In this document: one piece after another, positions 9,328-29,124 of the stretch
Layout: each line of letters starts with the position of its first letter
Position numbering within the stretch: the stretch's first letter is position 1
Assembly: GCA_016783285.1 (NCBI GenBank)
Contig: JADHWW010000007.1
Coordinates: forward strand, 1 to 39,055
DNA from: Anaerolineae bacterium
Lineage (GTDB): Bacteria > Chloroflexota > Anaerolineae > B4-G1
Direction of reading: 5' to 3'
DNA: 39,055 nt
Notes under the pieces: model-generated
The model's database searches: none
Told to the model about the DNA's origin: nothing
Seen by the model: the letters and a program-made list of their open reading frames with translations, nothing else
Made by a program: the position numbers and the translations under genes

Positions 9328-9411
9328 ATGCGCGTTGTTCAGACGAAATGCAGGGCCGTGGGCGACCCGGCATGCATCTTTGAGTTGTACAAGACGCCGG
9401 TGCGAAAGTGA
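9328..9411 (+). pseudogene. possible V4R-domain C-terminal remnant
   Basis: A 27-codon open frame contains TKCRAVGDPACIFELYK, which resembles the conserved end of V4R (4-vinyl reductase) domains, where a Cys, Gly-Asp-Pro and second Cys recur. Nothing of the rest of such a domain is seen upstream, since the M20 gene occupies it. It overlaps the psuG start by four bases. It may be a remnant, or a real short leader ORF. Confidence 0.3.
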
Positions 9412-10319
9412 GCCCATTGTGGTCCAAGTCGGAGCTGGCTCAAGCGCTGGCGGCAGGCCAGTCGGTGGTGGCGTTGGAATCGGCGCTCATCACCCACGGC
9501 TTTGCACCCCCGGCAAATCTGGAGGTGGCCCGGCGGATGGAGGCGACGGTGCGCGAGCAGAGAGCGCTACCAGCCACCATCGCCGTGCTGGAGGGCAGGG
9601 TGAGGATAGGGCTCTCTGACGAGGAACTGGCGCGGCTGGCCTGCGACCGGACGGCCCGCAAGGCCAGTCTGCGCGACCTGCCGCCTGTGTTGGCCCAGGG
9701 CGCAAGTGGCGGCACAACCGTCGCCGCGACGATGCACCTGGCCCACTGCGCTTCCATCCGCGTCTTTGCCACCGGCGGCATCGGGGGTGTGCACCGGGGC
9801 CATCCCGAGGATGTCTCGGCCGATCTCCTCGCGCTGGCCTCCATTCCTATCATCGTCGTCTGCGCTGGGGCCAAGGCCATCCTCGACCTGCCACGCACGT
9901 TGGAGTACCTGGAGACCCATGGCGTGCCGGTGATCGGCTACCGTACCGGAGAGTTCCCCGCCTTCTACAGCCGTCACTCGGGACTGAGGGTGGATGCGCG
10001 GGTCGAGACACCGGAGGAGGTGGCGCAGATGGCGCGGGCGCGGACAGAACTGGGCCTGTCGGCGGCGCTCCTGATCTGTGTCCCCGTCCCCGAGGTGGAT
10101 GAACTCCCGGCCGGCGAGGCCGAGGCGGCCATCGCGCGGGCGGTGGAGGAGGCGGAATCGGCCGGCGTGGGCGGCAAGGCACTGACACCGTTTCTGCTGG
10201 CGCGGCTGGTCAAACTGACCGGTGGACGGGCGCAGCGGGCCAACGAGGCTCTGCTGCTCAACAATGCCCGCGTGGCAGCCTGCATCGCGCGGGCTTTGAA
10301 GGAGGTATCCCATGCGTAA
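9408..10319 (+). CDS. psuG: pseudouridine-5'-phosphate glycosidase
   Basis: The 303-residue protein cleaves pseudouridine 5'-phosphate to uracil and ribose 5-phosphate, the second step of pseudouridine breakdown. Family hallmarks are VALESALITHG with Glu24, the QGASGGTTVAATM stretch, FATGGIGGVHRG, the Asp-containing HPEDVSADLLAL, and CAGAKAILDL with the catalytic Lys. Length is typical. The start is GTG at 9408 with only a weak upstream purine stretch. No psuK kinase is adjacent, so the phosphate donor step is encoded elsewhere or by another kinase. It shares an operon with the M20 hydrolase and overlaps the next gene by eight bases. Confidence 0.95.
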   Translation: MSPLWSKSELAQALAAGQSVVALESALITHGFAPPANLEVARRMEATVREQRALPATIAVLEGRVRIGLSDEELARLACDRTARKASLRDLPPVLAQGASGGTTVAATMHLAHCASIRVFATGGIGGVHRGHPEDVSADLLALASIPIIVVCAGAKAILDLPRTLEYLETHGVPVIGYRTGEFPAFYSRHSGLRVDARVETPEEVAQMARARTELGLSAALLICVPVPEVDELPAGEAEAAIARAVEEAESAGVGGKALTPFLLARLVKLTGGRAQRANEALLLNNARVAACIARALKEVSHA

Positions 10320-18422: not shown

Positions 18423-19967
18423 ATGGCCCCTGTTCTGGAACTGCGCGGCATCACTAAGGCTTTTCCCGGCGTCCTGGCGAACGACCGCATTGACCTGACC
18501 CTGGAGGAGGGTGAGATCCATGCCCTCCTGGGCGAGAACGGGGCGGGCAAGACCACGTTGATGAACGTCCTCTACGGCCTCTACGCCCCCGACGATGGGG
18601 AGATTACCATACGAGGCCGTCGGGTGGAGATCCACGAGCCCAATGACGCCATCGCCCAGGGCATCGGCATGGTTCACCAGCACTTCATGCTGGTGCCGGT
18701 GCTCACCGTGACAGAGAATGTCATGCTGGGGGTGGAGTCGATCAAGAACGGGATTTTTCTGGATCGGGCCGCCGCCGCCCAGCGCATCCGCCAGATATCC
18801 GAACAGTACGGGCTGCAGGTGGACCCCGACGCCTACATTAGGACCCTGCCAGTGGGGGTCCAGCAGCGGGTTGAGATCATCAAACTGCTGTACCGGGAAG
18901 CGGATATTCTTATCTTGGACGAACCGACGGCGGTCCTAACTCCTCAAGAAGTAGAGGAACTCTTCAAGGTTGTCCGATCGCTGGTGGCGCAGGGCAAGTC
19001 GGTGATCTTCATCACCCACAAGTTGAAGGAAGTGATGGCCATCGCCGACCGGATCACCGTCCTGCGCAACGGGCGGGTGGTGGGCACCACCACCCCGGCC
19101 CAGACCGACGAGCAACAACTGGCTGCGATGATGGTCGGCCGGGAAGTGCTCCTGCGTGTGGAAAAGGGTCCTGCCAATCCCGGTGAGACGGTGCTGGACG
19201 TGGAGAACCTGGAGGTGATGGACGACCGGGGCAACCTGGCGGTCCGGTCCATTTCCTTCCAGGTGCGGGCTGGCGAGGTGCTGGGAATGGCTGGCGTCCA
19301 GGGGAACGGTCAGACGGAGTTGGTGCAGGCGCTGACCGGCCTCCGGTCACCGCTGTCGGGTCAGGTGCACATTCTGGACGCTGACGTCACTGGTGCGTCC
19401 CCCCGGCGGGTGCTGGAGCAGGGGGTGGCCCACGTGCCGGAGGACCGCCAGCAGGACGGGCTGGTGCTCAGTTTCCCTGTATCCGACAACCTGGTTCTCA
19501 ATACTTACTACTTGCCTCCCTTCGCTCGCCTGGGCATACTGGATCAAGAGGCCATCCTGGCGACGGCAGAGAAAGGGACGCGAATGTTCGACGTGCGCAC
19601 TCCCAGTGTGTTGACGCCGGTCTCTAACCTCTCCGGTGGCAACCAGCAGAAAGTCATCGTCGCTCGTGAGTTCTCCCGCCCCATCTGTCTACTTATCGCT
19701 TCCCAGCCCACACGAGGGCTCGACGTGGGCTCCATCGAGTATATCCACTGTCGCATCGTCGAGAAGCGTGATGAGGGGTGCGCCATCCTCCTGGTCTCGC
19801 CAGAATTGGACGAGGTGATGGGGCTTTCAGACCGCATCGCAGTCATGTACGAGGGGAGAATCATGGACACCCTGCCCGCTGATCAGGTGACCAAAGAGGA
19901 AATCGGTCTGCTGATGGCGGGGGTAAAGGAAGCGCGAAAGGAGGCTGCCGGTGCAAGCGTCGCCTGA
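18423..19967 (+). CDS. nucleoside-type ABC transporter ATP-binding protein (two ATPase domains)
   Basis: The 514-residue protein carries two ABC domains in one chain, the arrangement of RbsA and of the YufO/NupO group that serves BMP-dependent importers. Domain 1 has Walker A GENGAGKT (residues 37-44), a relaxed signature LPVGVQQRVEI and Walker B LILDEPTAV with D166-E167. Domain 2 has the degenerate GVQGNGQTEL loop (291-300, no Lys), the signature LSGGNQQK (403-410) and LLIASQPTRGLDVG, as usual in this family. GGAGG precedes the ATG. Its last 17 bases overlap the next gene, which implies translational coupling. Confidence 0.93.
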   Translation: MAPVLELRGITKAFPGVLANDRIDLTLEEGEIHALLGENGAGKTTLMNVLYGLYAPDDGEITIRGRRVEIHEPNDAIAQGIGMVHQHFMLVPVLTVTENVMLGVESIKNGIFLDRAAAAQRIRQISEQYGLQVDPDAYIRTLPVGVQQRVEIIKLLYREADILILDEPTAVLTPQEVEELFKVVRSLVAQGKSVIFITHKLKEVMAIADRITVLRNGRVVGTTTPAQTDEQQLAAMMVGREVLLRVEKGPANPGETVLDVENLEVMDDRGNLAVRSISFQVRAGEVLGMAGVQGNGQTELVQALTGLRSPLSGQVHILDADVTGASPRRVLEQGVAHVPEDRQQDGLVLSFPVSDNLVLNTYYLPPFARLGILDQEAILATAEKGTRMFDVRTPSVLTPVSNLSGGNQQKVIVAREFSRPICLLIASQPTRGLDVGSIEYIHCRIVEKRDEGCAILLVSPELDEVMGLSDRIAVMYEGRIMDTLPADQVTKEEIGLLMAGVKEARKEAAGASVA

Positions 19968-22146
19968 TAAGCCACGGGTAGGTCTGGTCACCGACGTGGG
20001 CCGCGTTGACGACGGCACCTTCAATCAGCACGCCTACGAGGGGCTGAAGCGGTGCGTGGAGGAGCAGGCCATCGAACTCGACGTCATCCAGACCGAGTCC
20101 CAGATGGATTACGAGCGCAATATCCATCAAACGATCGAGCGTGGTTGCTCCTTTGTCGTCACCATCGGCTCTCGCACGGGGGCGGCAGTGGAGCGGTTGG
20201 CGATGCGCTACCCTGCGGTCCAGTTCATCATCGTGGATCACGAGCCATTGCCGGAGAGTCGCAACGTTACTGGGCTGGTTTTCGCCGAGGATCAGGCCGG
20301 CTTCCTGGCCGGCGCGCTGGCAGGGCTGGTGACAGAGCGAGGCACAGTGGGCTTCGTGGGCGGCATGGACGTAGTGCCGGTGCGCAAGTTCCAGAAAGGA
20401 TTTGAACACGGCGTAGCCTTCACCAACCGGCGGGCGAGTGTGGTTCAGGAGTATACTGACTCCTTCACCGACCGGAAGGCAGGAGAGACAGCCGCCGGGG
20501 AGTTGGTCGGGCAGGAGGCCGACGTAGTCTTCGCCGCCGGGGGCTTGAGTGGCAGCGCGGCAATCCGGTCCGCGGCTCAGCAAGGGGCCTGGGTCATCGG
20601 GGTGGATCAGGACGAGTGGGTGACGACCTTCCAGGATGGGGAGGCCCCCGGCGCGGAGCGATTGCTGACCAGCGCCGTCAAACGAGTGGATCAGGCGGTC
20701 TACGCCGCCGTCATCCAAGCGGTGCAAGGGAGACTTCAGAGCGGGGCGCTTCGCTTTGACCTGGCGAACGATGGAGTCGGGCTGGCTCCCTACCACTTGG
20801 CGGACACAGCCGTCCCCTCCGAGGTGCGGGGTAAGATCCTGGAGGTGGCCGAAGCACTGCGCACCGGCCGCGTCCGCACCCAGGTGGGGCCTCAGGGGGA
20901 GGCGCTTTTCGGGGGGTTCTTGCAGCGCCTGATGGCCAGGAACTGGCAGGCGACCCTGATGCCGATTCTGGCTATCTTCACCGCGCTGGTCATCGGCGCT
21001 ATCTTCATCGCTGCCTTCGACCCTGAGGTTTGGGAGGCCTTAGGTGAAGGGCTTGGGGCAGGCCTGTCGGTGTCCTGGCGGTCCATCGTCCAGGCCTACA
21101 CCAACCTCTTCGAGGGAGCCTTTGGCAGCCCATCTCGCATCATCGAGGGCATCCGTATCTATTCCCAGACTGGAGAGACGGCTGAACTGCTGCGGGCCAT
21201 CTACCCGCTGACGGAGAGTCTGCGCGTTGCTACTCCCTACATCTTCGCCGGGCTGTCGGTGGCGCTGGGCTTCCGCTGCGGCCTGTTCAACATTGGCGCG
21301 GAAGGGCAGTACTTCATCGGCGGGTTGGCCTCGGTCTTCGTGGGCTACAGTCTTAAAGGTCTACCCTGGTTCATCCACCTGCCCCTGGCCCTGGGGGCGG
21401 GGATGGCAGGCGGGGCTCTCTGGGCGGCCATCGCCGGTTTCCTGAAGGCCAAAACCGGGGCCCACGAGGTGATCAACACTATCATGCTCAACTACATCGC
21501 CTACCGGGTGGCCGATTACCTCTTGCAGGTCGGTGGGCCAATGGCCCGGCCGGGGGACAGCCGGCCGGTGAGCCCCGAGATTGAGCTCTCTGCCTACCTG
21601 CCTCAGTTCTTCCCCAACAACCCCTCCATTCGCATCAACGTTGGTCTCTTTCTGGCGCTGGTCGCGGTCGGGGTGGTCTACTGGCTCCTCTTCAAGACGA
21701 CCTTAGGCTTTGAAATCCGGGCGGTGGGGGCCAACCCCCGCGCGGCGCGGACAGCCGGTATCAGCGTGGCGCGGAACTTCGTTCTGGCGATGGCGATTAG
21801 CGGGGCGCTAGCGGGGATGGCCGGGGCACACGACATCCTGGGCGTCATCCACTACATGCCCAACGCTTTCTTCTCTGGCTACGGCTTCGATTCCATCGCC
21901 CTGGCGCTCTTGGGCAAGAGCCATCCCGTGGGGGTGCTGCTATCGGCGCTTCTGTTCGGCTTTCTGCGGGCTGGCGCACAGCGGATGCAAGGGTGGGCCC
22001 ACGTGCCCATTGACATTATCTCCGTGCTGCAAGGGCTGATCATCATCTTCATTGCCGCTCCAGAGGTGATCCGTTTCCTCTACCGCCTGCGCGCTCCAGA
22101 AGAGGCAGCCGAGGCAGTCTTCACCCGGGGCTGGGGTCAGGTCTAG
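19951..22146 (+). CDS. BMP substrate-binding domain fused to ABC permease
   Basis: The 731-residue protein joins a complete second BMP domain (residues 1-about 305, with VGLVTDVGRVDDGTFNQHAY and FVGGMDVVPVRKFQKGFEHG) to a branched-chain/nucleoside-type permease (about 328-731, with FRCGLFNIGAEGQYFIGG and EVINTIMLNYIA). There is no signal peptide: the start is GTG at 19951 with AAAGGAGG six bases upstream, and the BMP fold begins within ten residues. The first membrane helix follows at about 334-355. If the permease has the usual N-in topology the BMP domain is cytoplasmic, an unexpected location. No frameshift or stop separates the parts. Partner permease and ATPase flank it. Confidence 0.88.
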   Translation: MQASPDKPRVGLVTDVGRVDDGTFNQHAYEGLKRCVEEQAIELDVIQTESQMDYERNIHQTIERGCSFVVTIGSRTGAAVERLAMRYPAVQFIIVDHEPLPESRNVTGLVFAEDQAGFLAGALAGLVTERGTVGFVGGMDVVPVRKFQKGFEHGVAFTNRRASVVQEYTDSFTDRKAGETAAGELVGQEADVVFAAGGLSGSAAIRSAAQQGAWVIGVDQDEWVTTFQDGEAPGAERLLTSAVKRVDQAVYAAVIQAVQGRLQSGALRFDLANDGVGLAPYHLADTAVPSEVRGKILEVAEALRTGRVRTQVGPQGEALFGGFLQRLMARNWQATLMPILAIFTALVIGAIFIAAFDPEVWEALGEGLGAGLSVSWRSIVQAYTNLFEGAFGSPSRIIEGIRIYSQTGETAELLRAIYPLTESLRVATPYIFAGLSVALGFRCGLFNIGAEGQYFIGGLASVFVGYSLKGLPWFIHLPLALGAGMAGGALWAAIAGFLKAKTGAHEVINTIMLNYIAYRVADYLLQVGGPMARPGDSRPVSPEIELSAYLPQFFPNNPSIRINVGLFLALVAVGVVYWLLFKTTLGFEIRAVGANPRAARTAGISVARNFVLAMAISGALAGMAGAHDILGVIHYMPNAFFSGYGFDSIALALLGKSHPVGVLLSALLFGFLRAGAQRMQGWAHVPIDIISVLQGLIIIFIAAPEVIRFLYRLRAPEEAAEAVFTRGWGQV

Positions 22147-22157
22147 GGAGGTTGGAT

Positions 22158-23453
22158 ATGAGCACTGCATGGGAGCGAGTTGCTGCCCGGGGAGGGATCC
22201 CTCGCCGACGAGCGGTCATATACGGTCTGATCTTTCTGGGAGCAGGGCTGCTCATCTTCTTGCTGTTCGCCCGCACGGCCAGTGGAGACCAGACGTCAAT
22301 CTTTGTACTGAACCCTGCGAGGTCGCGCGCGTTGCCGGTGCCAGACCTGCCCATTCCCACCGCGGCGGCGCTGTATGCGTTTGTGCTGGTGTGTGTCTTC
22401 CTGGGAGGCTGGCAACTGGCGCGGGGCTTCCGGCGGGCTAACCTGGCTCTAGGTGGGGTGGCGATGCTGTTCGTGCTGGCCTTCCTCACCTGGGCCGCCC
22501 GCGGCCGCTCGCTGAACCTGACCGGCCTGTTTTCTAGCGCCCTGCTGCGGGCCGTCCCTATCGCCCTGGCTGGGCTCTCTGGGGTGCTGTGCGAGCGCTG
22601 TGCGGTGATCAACATCGCCATCGAGGGCATGATGATCACCGGCGCCTTCTTCGCCGCGCTGATGGGGAGCGTGGCGGCCAATGTCTGGGAGTGGCCGTCC
22701 TGGGCCGCCCTGCCCTTCGGCCTGCTCAGTGCCCTGGTCGCGGGGGCGCTCCTGGGGCTGCTGCTGGCAGTTCTGGCAGTCCGCTTCAAGGTGGATCAGA
22801 TCATCGCTGGTACCGCCATCAACATCCTGGGAGTGGGTCTCACCAGTTTCCTCAGCGCCCGCATCCTGGCCGAGTTCCAGCACCTCAACAACCCTGGTAT
22901 CTTTCCGCGGGTCTCCGTCCCTGGCCTGTCCAGCATACCTCTCATCGGACCGGTTTTCTTTGAACAGAACGTGCTGGTCTACACACTGTTTGTCATCCTG
23001 GCGGTGGCACATGTGATGCTCTTCTATACCCGATGGGGGCTGCGCACGCGGGCGGTGGGGGAGCATCCTCGCGCGGCCGACACGCTGGGGGTCAATGTTT
23101 TCAAGACCCGTTACGTCAACGTGATGATGGGGGGAATGGTAGCAGGGTTGGGGGGGGCCTTCCTGATCCTGGGTTCGGTGGGCCGCTTCGATGAGTTGAT
23201 GACCGCCGGCAAGGGGTTCATTGGCCTGGCGGCGATGATCTTCGGTAAGTGGATGCCCTTTGGTACTTTCGGCTCGGCCCTCATCTTTGGCTTCGCCGAC
23301 GCGCTGCAGACCAAACTGTCCATCCTGGAGGTACCCATTCCCTCCCACTTCCTGTTGATGGCTCCCTACCTGGTGACGATGATCGTCCTGGCCGGTGTGG
23401 TAGGCGAGGCCATTCCACCCGCCGCAGATGGTCAGCCCTACGAGAAGCAATGA
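22158..23453 (+). CDS. nucleoside-type ABC transporter permease
   Basis: The 431-residue protein is a polytopic BPD_transp_2 family permease with about ten hydrophobic segments. The conserved core CAVINIAIEGMMITGAFFAA and the later GEHPRAADTLG and GGMVAGLGGAFL segments match the second permease of BMP-linked importers. ATG at 22158 has GGGAGG exactly six bases upstream and is preferred to the TTG at 22152. It follows the fusion permease by 11 bases and would form a heterodimer with it. The substrate is probably nucleosides by analogy with the operon's BMP proteins. Confidence 0.92.
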   Translation: MSTAWERVAARGGIPRRRAVIYGLIFLGAGLLIFLLFARTASGDQTSIFVLNPARSRALPVPDLPIPTAAALYAFVLVCVFLGGWQLARGFRRANLALGGVAMLFVLAFLTWAARGRSLNLTGLFSSALLRAVPIALAGLSGVLCERCAVINIAIEGMMITGAFFAALMGSVAANVWEWPSWAALPFGLLSALVAGALLGLLLAVLAVRFKVDQIIAGTAINILGVGLTSFLSARILAEFQHLNNPGIFPRVSVPGLSSIPLIGPVFFEQNVLVYTLFVILAVAHVMLFYTRWGLRTRAVGEHPRAADTLGVNVFKTRYVNVMMGGMVAGLGGAFLILGSVGRFDELMTAGKGFIGLAAMIFGKWMPFGTFGSALIFGFADALQTKLSILEVPIPSHFLLMAPYLVTMIVLAGVVGEAIPPAADGQPYEKQ

Positions 23454-23477: not shown

Positions 23478-23512
23478 GCCGCTAGCATCCAGTATTGAGT
23501 ATCGAGCATCTG
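23478..23512 (+). repeat. AGTATCGAGCATC-type repeat upstream of the amidohydrolase
   Basis: GCTAGCATCCAGTATTGAGT followed by ATCGAGCATC are degenerate copies of the AGCATCCAGTAT word also found at 11355-11396. It lies across the junction between permease and amidohydrolase and contains a possible TTG start. Confidence 0.45.
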
Positions 23513-24841
23513 GTGACCAGCATCCTGATCCAAAACGTAACCGCCATCACGTTGGACGAGCGGGACCGCATCTTGCGCGATGTGGACATCGCCATTGAGG
23601 GCCGGACCATCGTAGCGGTGGGTGAAGCCCCTGAGGGCTTTGCCGCAGACGAAGTAATTGACGGCCGGGAGCGCGTAGCGCTGCCCGGCTTCTTCAATGC
23701 CCACACCCACGCGGCGATGACGCTGGAGCGCGGCTGGGCCGAGGACCTTCCCTTCGACCGCTGGCTCAACGAGAAAATATGGGTCGCTGAGTCGGCATTG
23801 GAGGAAGAGGACGTCTACTGGGGCGCGGCGCTGGCCTGCTGCGAGATGATCCACTCGGGCATCGTCGGCTTCGCCGATCATTACTTCTGGATGAACCAGG
23901 TTGCCCGGGCTGTGGAGGAGAGCGGGATGAAGGCCAGCCTGGCCTGGTGTCAGTTTGGCACCGGTGTCGAGCACGAGGTGGGTGGAGCAACACTGGATGG
24001 CATCGTCCGCTTCGTGCGGGAGTGGCACGGGGCAGCCAATGGTCGTATTCGCTGCACTATGGGTCCCCATTCCCCTTACATGTGCCCGCCGGAGTTTGTG
24101 CGCCAGGTCGTCCGGACAGCCCATGCGTTGGATGTCGGTGTCCACCTGCACGTGGCCGAGTCGCAGGAACAGGTCACCAACTCCCTGTCCACCCATGGGA
24201 AGACGCCGGTGGCGCATCTGGCCGCGTTGGGCGTTTTCGACATCCCCACTATTGCTGCCCACTGTATCGTCGTCAGCGATCAGGACATCGCCACCCTGGC
24301 CGAGAAGGGTGTGCACGTGGCTCACACCCCCAAGACCTACCTAAAACTGGCGATGGGAATGGCACCGCTGCCTCGGCTGCTGGAGGGCGGTGTGAACGTC
24401 GCGCTGGGCACCGATGGCCCAGCCTCGAACAACGACCTCAACATGCTTGAGGTGCTGCGCATCACCGGACTGTATCACAAAAACGCACAGAGCCGGCCTG
24501 AGGTGTTGCCCCGTACCCAGATTCTGCGCCTGGCGACGCAGGCTGGTGCGCAGGCACTGGGTTTCCTGGAGAGCGGCGTCCTGGCCCCCGGCCGTCCCGC
24601 CGACCTGATCCTGCTTGACACCAGCGCTTGCCACTGGTTCCCGCGCCATGACCTGGCCGCTGGTATCGTCTACGGTGCGCACCCTGCTGATGTGAGCCAC
24701 GTCATTGTGGATGGGCGGTTGCTTCTGCGTGACGGAGAACTCCTGACGCTCGATGAGGAGCGCATTTGCTACGAGGCTGAGCGGCGCGCTTTTCGTATGG
24801 TTGGCACCCCGTTGCGCCAGGTGCGCGCCTATCGGGGGTAG
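23513..24841 (+). CDS. MtaD/SsnA-type amidohydrolase (nucleoside deaminase-like)
   Basis: The 442-residue metal-dependent hydrolase has the metal-binding H64-T-H66 in NAHTHAAMTLERGW, HLHVAESQEQ, the AAHCIVVSDQD histidine and Asp in LGTDGPASNNDLNM. These match 5-methylthioadenosine/S-adenosylhomocysteine deaminases and the related SsnA group, which deaminate adenine nucleoside derivatives or act on other cyclic substrates. GTG at 23513 gives the expected short N-terminus (TSILIQNVTAITL); a TTG 18 bases earlier lies in repeat sequence. Its place after the BMP importer suggests it acts on the imported nucleoside. The exact substrate cannot be read from sequence. Confidence 0.88.
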   Translation: MTSILIQNVTAITLDERDRILRDVDIAIEGRTIVAVGEAPEGFAADEVIDGRERVALPGFFNAHTHAAMTLERGWAEDLPFDRWLNEKIWVAESALEEEDVYWGAALACCEMIHSGIVGFADHYFWMNQVARAVEESGMKASLAWCQFGTGVEHEVGGATLDGIVRFVREWHGAANGRIRCTMGPHSPYMCPPEFVRQVVRTAHALDVGVHLHVAESQEQVTNSLSTHGKTPVAHLAALGVFDIPTIAAHCIVVSDQDIATLAEKGVHVAHTPKTYLKLAMGMAPLPRLLEGGVNVALGTDGPASNNDLNMLEVLRITGLYHKNAQSRPEVLPRTQILRLATQAGAQALGFLESGVLAPGRPADLILLDTSACHWFPRHDLAAGIVYGAHPADVSHVIVDGRLLLRDGELLTLDEERICYEAERRAFRMVGTPLRQVRAYRG

Positions 24842-26677: not shown

Positions 26678-26688
26678 GTTGTAGTGTG

Positions 26689-29124
26689 ATGATTTACTGC
26701 CCAAAGTGTGGCACGGCTAATCGAAGAGGTAGTCGCTTCTGTAACGAATGTGGCGAACCGCTCCCGATGCGCACGGCGCTGCGCTGCCCTATGTGCGGCA
26801 CGATGAACCCTGTCGGCAACGTCTATTGTGACCGGTGCAACGCTCGCCTTATCCCGATGGCAGTTTCGCCCTCCGAGGGAGTGAAACCTGAGCAGGTCCC
26901 AATTAAAGGGCTTTCCTTGCCCACTATCCCGCTGGAGGGGGAGAGTGAGCAGCAAGTTGAGGATGTGACTGAGGAAGTCGGGACACGGGAGGGGGCAGAG
27001 AGTTGGTTGGCGCGACTCCGGGCTTCGGCGGTGGAGGAGCAGCGGCAGGCTGAGGATGTGACCGAGGAAGTCGGGGCAGGGGAGGAAGCAGATTGGTTGG
27101 CGCGACTTCGTGCTTCGGCGGTGGAGGAGCAGCGGCAGGCTGAGGATGTGACCGAGGAAGTCGGGGCAGGGGAGGAAGCAGATTGGTTGGCGCAACTCCG
27201 GGCTCCGGCGGTGGAGGAGGAGGAGGCCGAGGGATCTGAAGTTATGGCCGAGCCCATCGAGCCAGTCGAGATCCCCGATTGGTTGCGTGATCTGGGGCCA
27301 ATCGGTGTGGAGGCTGAGGCAATACCAGGCGAGCAGCAGCCAGCTGCGGAAGCGCCTTTGGAGGAAGAAACACCGACGATGGCCCCGCCTGTCTTGGCTG
27401 AAGTTCCAGACTGGCTGCTGGAGATGGCGCCGCCGGAGGCGGCGGTTCGTGAGGTCGTGCCGCCAGCGGTCGAGGCTGTGCCTGAGGAGCCGGCTTTGGA
27501 ATTGCCCGCGCTTGCTCCGGCTGAGATTCCCGACTGGCTGCTGGAGATGGCGCCGCCAGAGGCGGCGGCTCCCGAGGTCGTGCCGCCAGCGGTCGAGGCT
27601 GTGCCTGAGGAGCCGGCTTTGGAATTGCCCGCGCTTGCTCCGGCTGAGATTCCCGACTGGCTGCTGGAGATGGCGCCGCCGGAGGTGGCGGCTCCCGAGG
27701 TCGTGCCGCCAGCGGTCGAGGCTGTGCCTGAGGAACCGGCTTTGGAACTGCCTGCGCTTGCTCCGGCTGAGATTCCCGATTGGTTGCGGGAGATAGCGCC
27801 GCCGGAGGCGGCGGCCCCTGAGGCTGCGCCACTGTTGCATCCACCCTTCGTGGGCGTGCCTGTGCCCGACGTGCCTGAGACTTCGGAGTGGTTGCGTGAG
27901 GCCGCTCTGGGGGAAGTGGTCGCACCGGAGACGGAGGCCGTCGAAGTCCCGGAGTGGCTGTCCGAACTCCAGGAGAAGCCTGCTCCTCCTTCTGCTCTAC
28001 CCGTCCCTGTCTTTGAAGGCGCGACTCTGTCCCTTCCACCTGAGCCTGGGATCGGGGCGGCCGAGGCTGAGGGTCTGGCGCGCGCGGAGATCCCCGACTG
28101 GCTGGAGGCCCTGCGCCCGCGCCTTGGGATGGATGAGGCAGCCGCTGAGGAGGAGCCGCTGGAGACCGAGGGGTTATTGGAAGGATTGCGCGGCGTCTTG
28201 CCCCCGGCCATTGAGGTGCCTTCCGTCCGCGAGAGCGCGCTGCCCGTCGAGGTCAGCGAGGCGAGTCTGTCTCGGGCTCAGTTGCTCCAAAGCCTGCTGA
28301 CCCGGCCAGCCGAGGCGCCGCGACCGGAGGTGCGCAGGCGGGGCATCAGCATTAGCGAACTGGTCCAGCGTTGGCTGGTGGCAGTCGTGCTCTTCGTAGC
28401 CGTAGGGGGCATGCTGATGGCGCCGCTGGTGATGCCCGATGTTCCAACCCTGGCACGGCCCGCTAGATCCCTTGGAGTGGAGAATCTGTACGCTGTCATC
28501 CAAAGCGTGAGTGCGGACGACACCGTCCTGGTCGCTTTCGAGTACGGACCACCGGAGGCGGATGAACTTGACCTGGTGGCAGAACCAATCCTGCGGCATC
28601 TGCTTGCCCAGGGGGCGCATGTCTCCGTAGTTAGCACGCAGTCTGAGGGACTGGCGGTGGCAGCGGGCCTGCTGGATACCATCGCACCGGCGGGGGGCGA
28701 ACTTGGCCAACAATATGCACTGTTGGGCTATCGGCCAGGTGGTACTATGGGTGTTTCGCAGATGCTGACCGATGCGGGTATACACCCCAGTCTGGTTCTC
28801 GTGTTGGCTGCTCGGCCTGCGGCACTGCGCTGGTGGGTTGAGCAGACACATGCGCTGTACGGCGACATGCTTCCAATCGTAGCGGGTGTGAGCGCGGCTA
28901 TAGAGCCGGCCGCCAGCCCATACCTGGATGCCAGCGCTGGACAACTGGAGGGTGCGATCAATGGGTTGAGCGGGGCAGCCGCCTACGAGACACTCCGCGG
29001 ATTGGGAGGGCGGGCTACTCAACGAATCAACGCCCTGGCGGCGGGGCACGTGGCCATCGTTGGTTTGATGGTCATCGGTGCGGTCTTCTACGCCCTCGGT
29101 GGCTCGCGCGGGAGGAGAGGGTGA
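26689..29124 (+). CDS. double zinc-ribbon membrane protein with WL-motif tandem repeats
   Basis: The 811-residue protein starts with two zinc ribbons, CPKCGTANRRGSRFCNECG and CPMCGTMNPVGNVYCDRC. Residues about 75-530 are acidic, Pro/Glu/Ala-rich and carry at least eleven short motifs ending in WL: SWLARLRA, DWLARLRA, DWLAQLRA, IPDWLRDLGP, VPDWLLEMAP, IPDWLLEMAP twice, IPDWLREIAP, SEWLREAA, VPEWLSEL, IPDWLEAL. A membrane helix (LVAVVLFVAVGGMLMAPLV, about 562-580), a soluble alpha/beta-looking domain of some 200 residues and a final helix (HVAIVGLMVIGAVFYAL) follow. With zinc ribbons inside, the soluble domain would be outside. ATG 26689 is preferred to the GTG at 26686. Function is unknown. 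Confidence 0.75.
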   Translation: MIYCPKCGTANRRGSRFCNECGEPLPMRTALRCPMCGTMNPVGNVYCDRCNARLIPMAVSPSEGVKPEQVPIKGLSLPTIPLEGESEQQVEDVTEEVGTREGAESWLARLRASAVEEQRQAEDVTEEVGAGEEADWLARLRASAVEEQRQAEDVTEEVGAGEEADWLAQLRAPAVEEEEAEGSEVMAEPIEPVEIPDWLRDLGPIGVEAEAIPGEQQPAAEAPLEEETPTMAPPVLAEVPDWLLEMAPPEAAVREVVPPAVEAVPEEPALELPALAPAEIPDWLLEMAPPEAAAPEVVPPAVEAVPEEPALELPALAPAEIPDWLLEMAPPEVAAPEVVPPAVEAVPEEPALELPALAPAEIPDWLREIAPPEAAAPEAAPLLHPPFVGVPVPDVPETSEWLREAALGEVVAPETEAVEVPEWLSELQEKPAPPSALPVPVFEGATLSLPPEPGIGAAEAEGLARAEIPDWLEALRPRLGMDEAAAEEEPLETEGLLEGLRGVLPPAIEVPSVRESALPVEVSEASLSRAQLLQSLLTRPAEAPRPEVRRRGISISELVQRWLVAVVLFVAVGGMLMAPLVMPDVPTLARPARSLGVENLYAVIQSVSADDTVLVAFEYGPPEADELDLVAEPILRHLLAQGAHVSVVSTQSEGLAVAAGLLDTIAPAGGELGQQYALLGYRPGGTMGVSQMLTDAGIHPSLVLVLAARPAALRWWVEQTHALYGDMLPIVAGVSAAIEPAASPYLDASAGQLEGAINGLSGAAAYETLRGLGGRATQRINALAAGHVAIVGLMVIGAVFYALGGSRGRRG
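27004..27273 (+). repeat. 90-bp tandem coding repeat
   Basis: A 90-base unit beginning TGGTTGGCGCGACT starts at 27004, 27094 and 27184, encoding WLARLRASAVEEQRQAEDVT plus ten further residues. The first two copies are nearly identical and the third diverges after about 36 bases. This implies recent duplication. Confidence 0.85.
27400..27840 (+). repeat. 123-bp tandem coding repeat, four copies
   Basis: A 123-base (41-codon) unit starting GAGATTCCCGACTGGCTG begins at 27400 (as GAAGTTCC), 27523, 27646 and 27769. It encodes IPDWLLEMAPPEAAAPEVVP followed by PAVEAVPEEPALELPALAPA. Inner copies are almost identical at DNA level; the first and last are more diverged. Confidence 0.88.

Follow-up and report, generated by a model that had tools for sequence, protein, structure and literature searches.

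A BMP domain without an export signal, fused to an importer permease in Anaerolineae, is a candidate cytosolic nucleoside sensor

What does a substrate-binding domain do on an importer permease when it carries no signal for export? To our knowledge, substrate-binding proteins are generally taken to act outside the membrane. The question is raised by a stretch of 39,055 nucleotides from an Anaerolineae bacterium (assembly GCA_016783285.1, contig JADHWW010000007.1, positions 1 to 39,055 of the forward strand; hereafter the window), in which one gene joins a BMP-type substrate-binding domain to a permease of the ATP-binding cassette (ABC) importer type. An initial annotation of the window had described a single open frame with a GTG start behind a strong Shine-Dalgarno sequence, a BMP fold beginning near the N-terminus with no signal peptide, and a normal BMP lipoprotein in the same operon. 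These descriptions are borne out by the reading frame, the AAAGGAGG motif preceding it and the domain matches (Table 1). In the fused protein, the Pfam family Bmp (PF02608) covers residues 12-279 with 175 bits against a cut-off of 24.1, BPD_transp_2 covers residues 422-701 with 159 bits (4-268 of the 269 profile positions), and similarity to the solved BMP-family protein 7x0r extends from residue 7 to residue 321. The operon, made up of a BMP lipoprotein, a fused double ATPase and two permeases, matches importers of the NupNOPQ/PnrA type, and the fused gene is best explained as a permease subunit of such a BMP-type (PnrA/NupNOPQ-like) putative nucleoside ABC importer.

The same architecture was found in many relatives, which fall into two families: family 1, the fused gene of the window type, and family 2, a second fused BMP-permease family. 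The family-1 search scored 7998 candidates, 3207 of which matched the query at E <=1e-20 (some perhaps unfused), and our protein counts rest on the best 120 of these. All 120 have both Pfam domains, with identities of 70-91%. For family 2, 67 proteins among the matches listed are 64-92% identical to the fused gene of locus L123, and both Pfam families are present in 66 of them. Where the organism is stated, relatives of either family come from Anaerolineae or Chloroflexi. We also surveyed the class to which G001 belongs (locus L004 lies in this genome, Anaerolinea sp.) in 396 genomes, taking the two best candidates per genome at E <=1e-100, and observed stop-free fused frames in 14 genomes for family 1 and 7 for family 2; contig edges truncate three of the 21 (G015, G215, G302), and G400, whose contig starts within the gene, was counted in neither family. 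The order of G343 holds 14 family-1 genomes and one family-2 genome among 48. Across 400 genomes of the phylum, the family-2 query gave 8 matches at E <=1e-110, none of them a single open fused frame. A contig scan returned no fused gene among the best 80 of at least 587 loci, indicating that the architecture is a minority even within its class.

Since all 120 best homologues are fused and other genomes carry stop-free fused frames, chance or error can be excluded as the origin of the fusion. The initial annotation would have been undermined by a frameshift or a concealed stop around residues 305-330; this is excluded as well, the linker being free of stops and conserved across nearly two hundred of the relatives listed. 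Split BMP/permease matches with internal stops in G350, G243, G095, G312, G551 and G510 proved to be separate neighbouring genes and not broken fusions; the BMP partners in G350, G243, G312 and G551 start with lipoprotein-like signals. Names of the IMG type already cover both halves of the fused protein ('permease subunit/basic membrane lipoprotein Med').

The fused domain lacks, as judged by hydropathy, the usual export feature of the BMP family (signal peptide or lipobox). We took the highest 15-residue hydropathy within the first 45 residues, with a threshold of 1.6. No hydrophobic N-terminus above this threshold was detected in 120 family-1 proteins longer than 700 residues or in 62 family-2 proteins longer than 650 residues (maxima 1.07 and 1.20). 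Among 96 unfused BMP controls, measured over at most 110 residues preceding the BMP domain, 89 exceeded the threshold and 74 showed a lipobox pattern, a pattern found at none of 21 fused loci (at three further loci the upstream sequence was too short to scan). In the window, the frame holds only 8 further open codons upstream of the GTG (stop to stop, 19927-22143), and a hidden in-frame signal peptide is thus impossible there. This rules out, for the window, that an upstream start with a signal peptide was overlooked, and none was seen at those fused loci whose upstream sequence is long enough.

The permease part also bears on the side of the membrane. By hydropathy we counted six membrane passages separating the N-terminus from the predicted coupling loop, some peaks being merged or weak, and the N-terminus and the cytoplasmic coupling loop would therefore lie on the same side. 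In the unfused sister permeases, the 20 residues preceding the equivalent first transmembrane helix (TM1) are net positive in 10 of 11, with start codons as assumed, and in 120 of 121 family-1 proteins the 16-residue flank that precedes TM1 has a more positive net charge than the 16-residue flank behind it. Lysine and arginine are denser in the predicted inner loops than in the outer ones in both families (0.134 vs 0.075 and 0.108 vs 0.072). E. coli RbsC has its N-terminus inside. Sequence features thus give good, if indirect, support to a cytoplasmic position of the BMP domain, the family-2 charge bias at TM1 excepted.

An external receptor is usually available besides the fused domain. A PF02608 search was run on 16 family-1 and 7 family-2 genomes. 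An orthologue of the operon lipoprotein is encoded in 13 of the 16 family-1 genomes, adjoining the ATPase as in the window in six and lying elsewhere or on another contig in seven. Four of the family-2 genomes (G282, G021, G086, G302) encode a lipoprotein that closely resembles the fused domain, and G060 has a shortened one that is near the fused type by score only.

Exported BMP lipoproteins also occur in composite frames among the loci and proteins collected. According to Pfam, a 980-residue frame at L123:6622-9561 joins an exported BMP lipoprotein to SBP_bac_5, a second solute-binding domain, and frames at L172:5433-8204 and L173:4309-7122 (924 and 938 residues) resemble it in length and BMP type. 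By reading, L127:2657-4744 holds two near-identical BMP lipoprotein copies in one 696-residue frame, P0190 two tandem copies (703 residues) and P0189 three (1217 residues, with a fasciclin match). A 746-residue exported BMP lipoprotein with an additional C-terminal domain lies at L117:7632-9869.

The ligand pocket of the fused domain was compared with those of characterized receptors. In BmpA, the pocket comprises Phe27, Phe151, Phe176, Val224, Asp225 and Lys242, with Asp98 contacting the ribose, and alanine substitution at Phe27 or Phe176 abolishes binding (PMC13325309); similar pockets are described for BmpD and PnrA (PMC7093131). Mapping through an alignment to PnrA chain 2fqw, and not to BmpA, places the equivalents at F24, F147, F172, V218, D219, K244 and D96, the correspondence of F151 to F147 presuming a gap-free stretch. 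Together with D15, D21 and N25 these residues were tracked through both families. In family 1 (n = 121), D96, F172, D219 and K244 are each present in all 121 proteins, followed by D15 (117), F24 (111, and Tyr in 9), D21 (110), F147 (110, and Tyr in 11), V218 (107) and N25 (106). The mean conservation of the ten positions is 0.949, against 0.772 for the whole domain, and 22 of 20,000 random sets scored as high. In family 2 (n = 68), the equivalents are kept at K244 (68), D219 (67), V218 (67), F172 (66), D96 (64, with 4 gaps), D21 (62, with 5 gaps), F147 (59, with 4 Tyr and 4 Leu) and F24 (58, with 5 Tyr and 5 gaps). Because this nucleoside pocket is kept, the fused domain probably binds a nucleoside. 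A minority of family 1 (P0095 and P0112, for example) has an altered base-contacting loop, with D20 replaced by G in 8, D21 by R in 5 and N25 by S in 8 of the 121 proteins, which may reflect a changed ligand preference.

The BMP domains of the two families group together, which their permeases do not. In a tree built from 46 BMP domains, those of the fused proteins of families 1 and 2 form one clade (100/99), on which a 118-row tree concurs (99). Its nearest neighbours are exported lipoproteins (the group labelled LIPOf), mostly from family-2 genomes, although which of them is sister is weakly supported (83/42). Family 2 is not a clade by itself in this tree, one row being basal (90/54), and three fused rows have an unusual letter composition. 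The operon lipoprotein of the window belongs to another BMP clade, which rules out a derivation of the fused domain from it. In a tree of 50 permease cores, with which a 135-row tree concurs, family 1 (88/83 by itself) groups together (100/99) with unfused permeases from the same order, and family 2 (100/99 by itself) sits in a distant set. Forcing the permeases of both families into one clade cost 118 log-likelihood units (approximately unbiased test, p-AU 0.0004), so that descent of both families from one ancestral fused gene is ruled out for the permease part. Grouping each fused family alone with lipoproteins gave p-AU values of 0.015 and 0.004, in tests picked after the first tree. Since the BMP domains form one clade and a single permease clade is rejected, the BMP module sits on two permease lineages.

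The joint between module and permease can be placed from the linker, which we compared in 60 of the 121 family-1 and 50 of the 68 family-2 rows. Over residues 301-319, which include the VGPxGE motif, identity is 0.55 between the fused families against 0.28 to the unfused sisters; from TM1 onward, family 1 resembles its unfused sister permeases equally or more than it does family 2. The joint thus lies at about residues 320-336, just before TM1. Transfer of a ready-made module between permeases explains these sequence patterns best; two independent captures of closely similar genes are a less likely alternative, disfavoured by the shared linker.

Taken together, we favour a model in which the fused domain is a cytosolic nucleoside sensor that gives feedback on its own importer (trans-inhibition), and we assign it a probability of roughly one half. 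The separate lipoprotein would capture the substrate outside the membrane, and the fused BMP domain would sit in the cytoplasm, just beneath the membrane and near the ATPases, where it would bind the imported nucleoside or a close product. The short VGPxGE linker would relay its open/closed movement to TM1, and a high internal pool would in this way slow transport or ATPase cycling. We infer the cytoplasmic location and the ligand binding from the sequences; the sign (inhibition) and the route of control are proposed. MetNI and ModBC are inhibited by substrate-bound cytosolic domains, and regulatory domains are described as 'plug and play' across transporters (PMC10710835). The initial annotation had suggested either a cytoplasmic sensor gating transport or ATPase activity or a topology switch. 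Its cytoplasmic, ligand-competent domain is well, though indirectly, supported by the missing hydrophobic N-terminus (182 of 182), the pocket, the N-terminal tails of the sister permeases and the family-1 charge bias; gating is plausible and is the mechanism we prefer, and nothing was found in favour of a topology switch.

A bolder model, which we consider improbable, is an importer with substrate-binding-protein domains on both membrane faces: an outer lipoprotein would load it, and the inner domain would close on the released nucleoside and directly drive or block the inward-open state. The inner domain would then take part in the transport cycle itself, with even regulated efflux conceivable, and would be a portable module that has moved between transporter backbones.

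Several observations weigh against a cytosolic sensor. As regards location, the N-terminal flank of TM1 is the more positive one in only 11 of 68 family-2 proteins, so that the charge bias supports a cytoplasmic location in family 1 and does not in family 2, and the charge rule alone is not to be relied on. No solved chain matched the permease profile at E <=10. An operon-type lipoprotein was not found in three of the 16 family-1 genomes (G375, G051, G405), and two of the 7 family-2 genomes (G257, G293) gave none of the clade of the fused domain, all of them bins that are possibly incomplete. The family-2 charges and the three family-1 genomes would suit a fused domain that is exported, with its N-terminus outside and TM1 as a reversed anchor, and that serves as an ordinary tethered external receptor. 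Such arrangements are known: a fused external substrate-binding domain is described in ArtRQP (PMC11466899), and tethered external ones are reported in GlnPQ and OpuA (PMC8025302, PMC11065425). However, about 300 residues would need to cross the membrane with no hydrophobic N-terminus in any of the 182 proteins, and the core would need either to be turned round or to lack one of the spans present in the unfused sisters; the family-1 charge bias also speaks against it. Because an export signal is missing and a separate lipoprotein is usually present, we regard export as quite unlikely.

As regards binding, conservation is lower in the BMP domain (0.770) than in the permease core (0.894), and the domain's positions near the base vary: in family 1, N25 is altered in 15 of 121 proteins (one of them a gap) and D21 in 11, and in family 2 the equivalent of D15 is D in 52 of 68 (Glu in 8) and that of N25 is N in 47, which makes the base-facing end looser there. 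The faster evolution of the domain and the altered loop of the family-1 minority could be those of a non-binding structural remnant, or of an element for assembly or stability. This is very unlikely in our view because the pocket is conserved, its ribose- and base-contacting residues showing little or no variation in family 1 or family 2, and the domain is kept on a second permease. Any working BMP protein would, however, be expected to conserve its pocket, and this conservation does not tell which ligand is bound; its significance is that the fused domain appears to have remained a BMP protein of the working type. A cytosolic sensor of some other ligand, a nucleotide or a signalling nucleoside that would tie uptake to another metabolic state, is to be weighed as well. 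It would agree with the different BMP clades to which fused domain and operon lipoprotein belong and with position 218, which is V in 8, S in 6 and A in 2 of the 16 family-1 genome copies vs V in 16 of 16 operon-type lipoproteins. We judge it rather unlikely, given that the known pocket is otherwise kept and that valine prevails at this position in the larger set. As regards control, the trans-inhibition domains described in PMC10710835 sit on the ATPase and not on the permease.

Finally, the same evidence on location and pocket would fit a receiving or buffering site that is not a regulator, namely a cytoplasmic nucleoside-binding domain that captures the exiting substrate, stops its back-flow or hands it to an enzyme. 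In the window, a deaminase-like amidohydrolase follows the operon (Table 1); it falls below the cut-off for all 25 listed (of 48) NCBIfam models and is a possible nucleoside-using neighbour of the importer. However, a search for a conserved partner enzyme near the operons of relatives gave unrelated annotated neighbours (FtsY at three loci, thioredoxin reductase at two, and others), and no partner enzyme thus appears conserved in the annotated sample. One site per fused subunit would also make a poor buffer, and we hold a receiving site to be unlikely.

Table 1. Importer operon of the window and parts of the fused gene (residues refer to the fused protein)
Feature	Position	Strand	Remarks
Fused BMP-permease gene	19951..22146	+	single open frame, 731 residues, GTG start
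Shine-Dalgarno-like AAAGGAGG	19937..19944	+	6 nt from the GTG start
BMP domain (residues 9-300)	19975..20850	+	no signal peptide; ten pocket residues mapped
Linker (residues 301-335), VGPxGE motif	20851..20955	+	common to both fused families
First transmembrane helix, TM1 (residues 336-357)	20956..21021	+	hydropathy
Permease core (residues 417-715, BPD_transp_2)	21199..22095	+	Pfam, core tree
Predicted cytoplasmic coupling loop (residues 584-608)	21700..21774	+	hydropathy, after six predicted spans
BMP-family lipoprotein, 355 residues	17276..18343	+	Bmp 194.5 bits, signal peptide, lipobox-like LLAACG
ATPase with two nucleotide-binding domains, 514 residues	18423..19967	+	two ABC_tran matches; 17-nt overlap with the fused gene
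Second permease, unfused, BPD_transp_2	22152..23453	+	listed from TTG; ATG at 22158
Amidohydrolase, after the operon	23495..24841	+	resembles 5'-deoxyadenosine/methylthioadenosine/S-adenosylhomocysteine deaminases and chlorohydrolases

Elsewhere in the window, an Indigoidine_A protein is encoded at 9408-10316, about 7 kb upstream of the operon; this Pfam family includes PsuG (pseudouridine-5'-phosphate glycosidase), and the protein is a possible nucleoside-related enzyme. An 812-residue protein at 26686-29121 carries a double zinc ribbon and, by reading, near-identical tandem repeats of the PDWLLEMAPPEAA type in its middle. A PADLOC search gave no match.

The fused architecture is present in databases and, as far as our literature searches show, apparently unstudied: among the titles and abstract openings covered, with few subscription papers, none was found to describe a BMP domain fused to a permease, or an importer bearing a substrate-binding domain in the cytoplasm. 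If the proposed model is true, it would show how a receptor that normally works outside is converted into a sensor for feedback from within; the fused protein would also be a simple case in which to study how closure of this fold upon ligand binding reaches a transporter. The fused gene also corrects labels assigned by machine, for instance 'BMP family ABC transporter substrate-binding protein', the product being a permease subunit.

Among known systems, the importers of PnrA/BmpD/BmpA and NupNOPQ share with this one the BMP pocket and the set of a BMP lipoprotein, a double ATPase and two permeases, but their characterized receptors are external, whereas here one permease bears an additional BMP domain without a signal. 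The periplasmic-binding-protein fold serves as an intracellular sensor in the LacI-type regulators; unlike these, the fused domain has no DNA-binding domain and is attached to a transporter. GlnPQ, OpuA and ArtRQP likewise have a substrate-binding domain in frame with a membrane subunit, but theirs is external and is the system's own receptor, whereas that of the window apparently lies inside and is additional to a separate lipoprotein. MetNI and ModBC share the logic proposed here, a cytosolic ligand-binding domain restraining the importer of that ligand, but their domains are C-terminal on the ATPase and have other folds, whereas here the fold is that of a substrate-binding protein and stands at the N-terminus of the permease.

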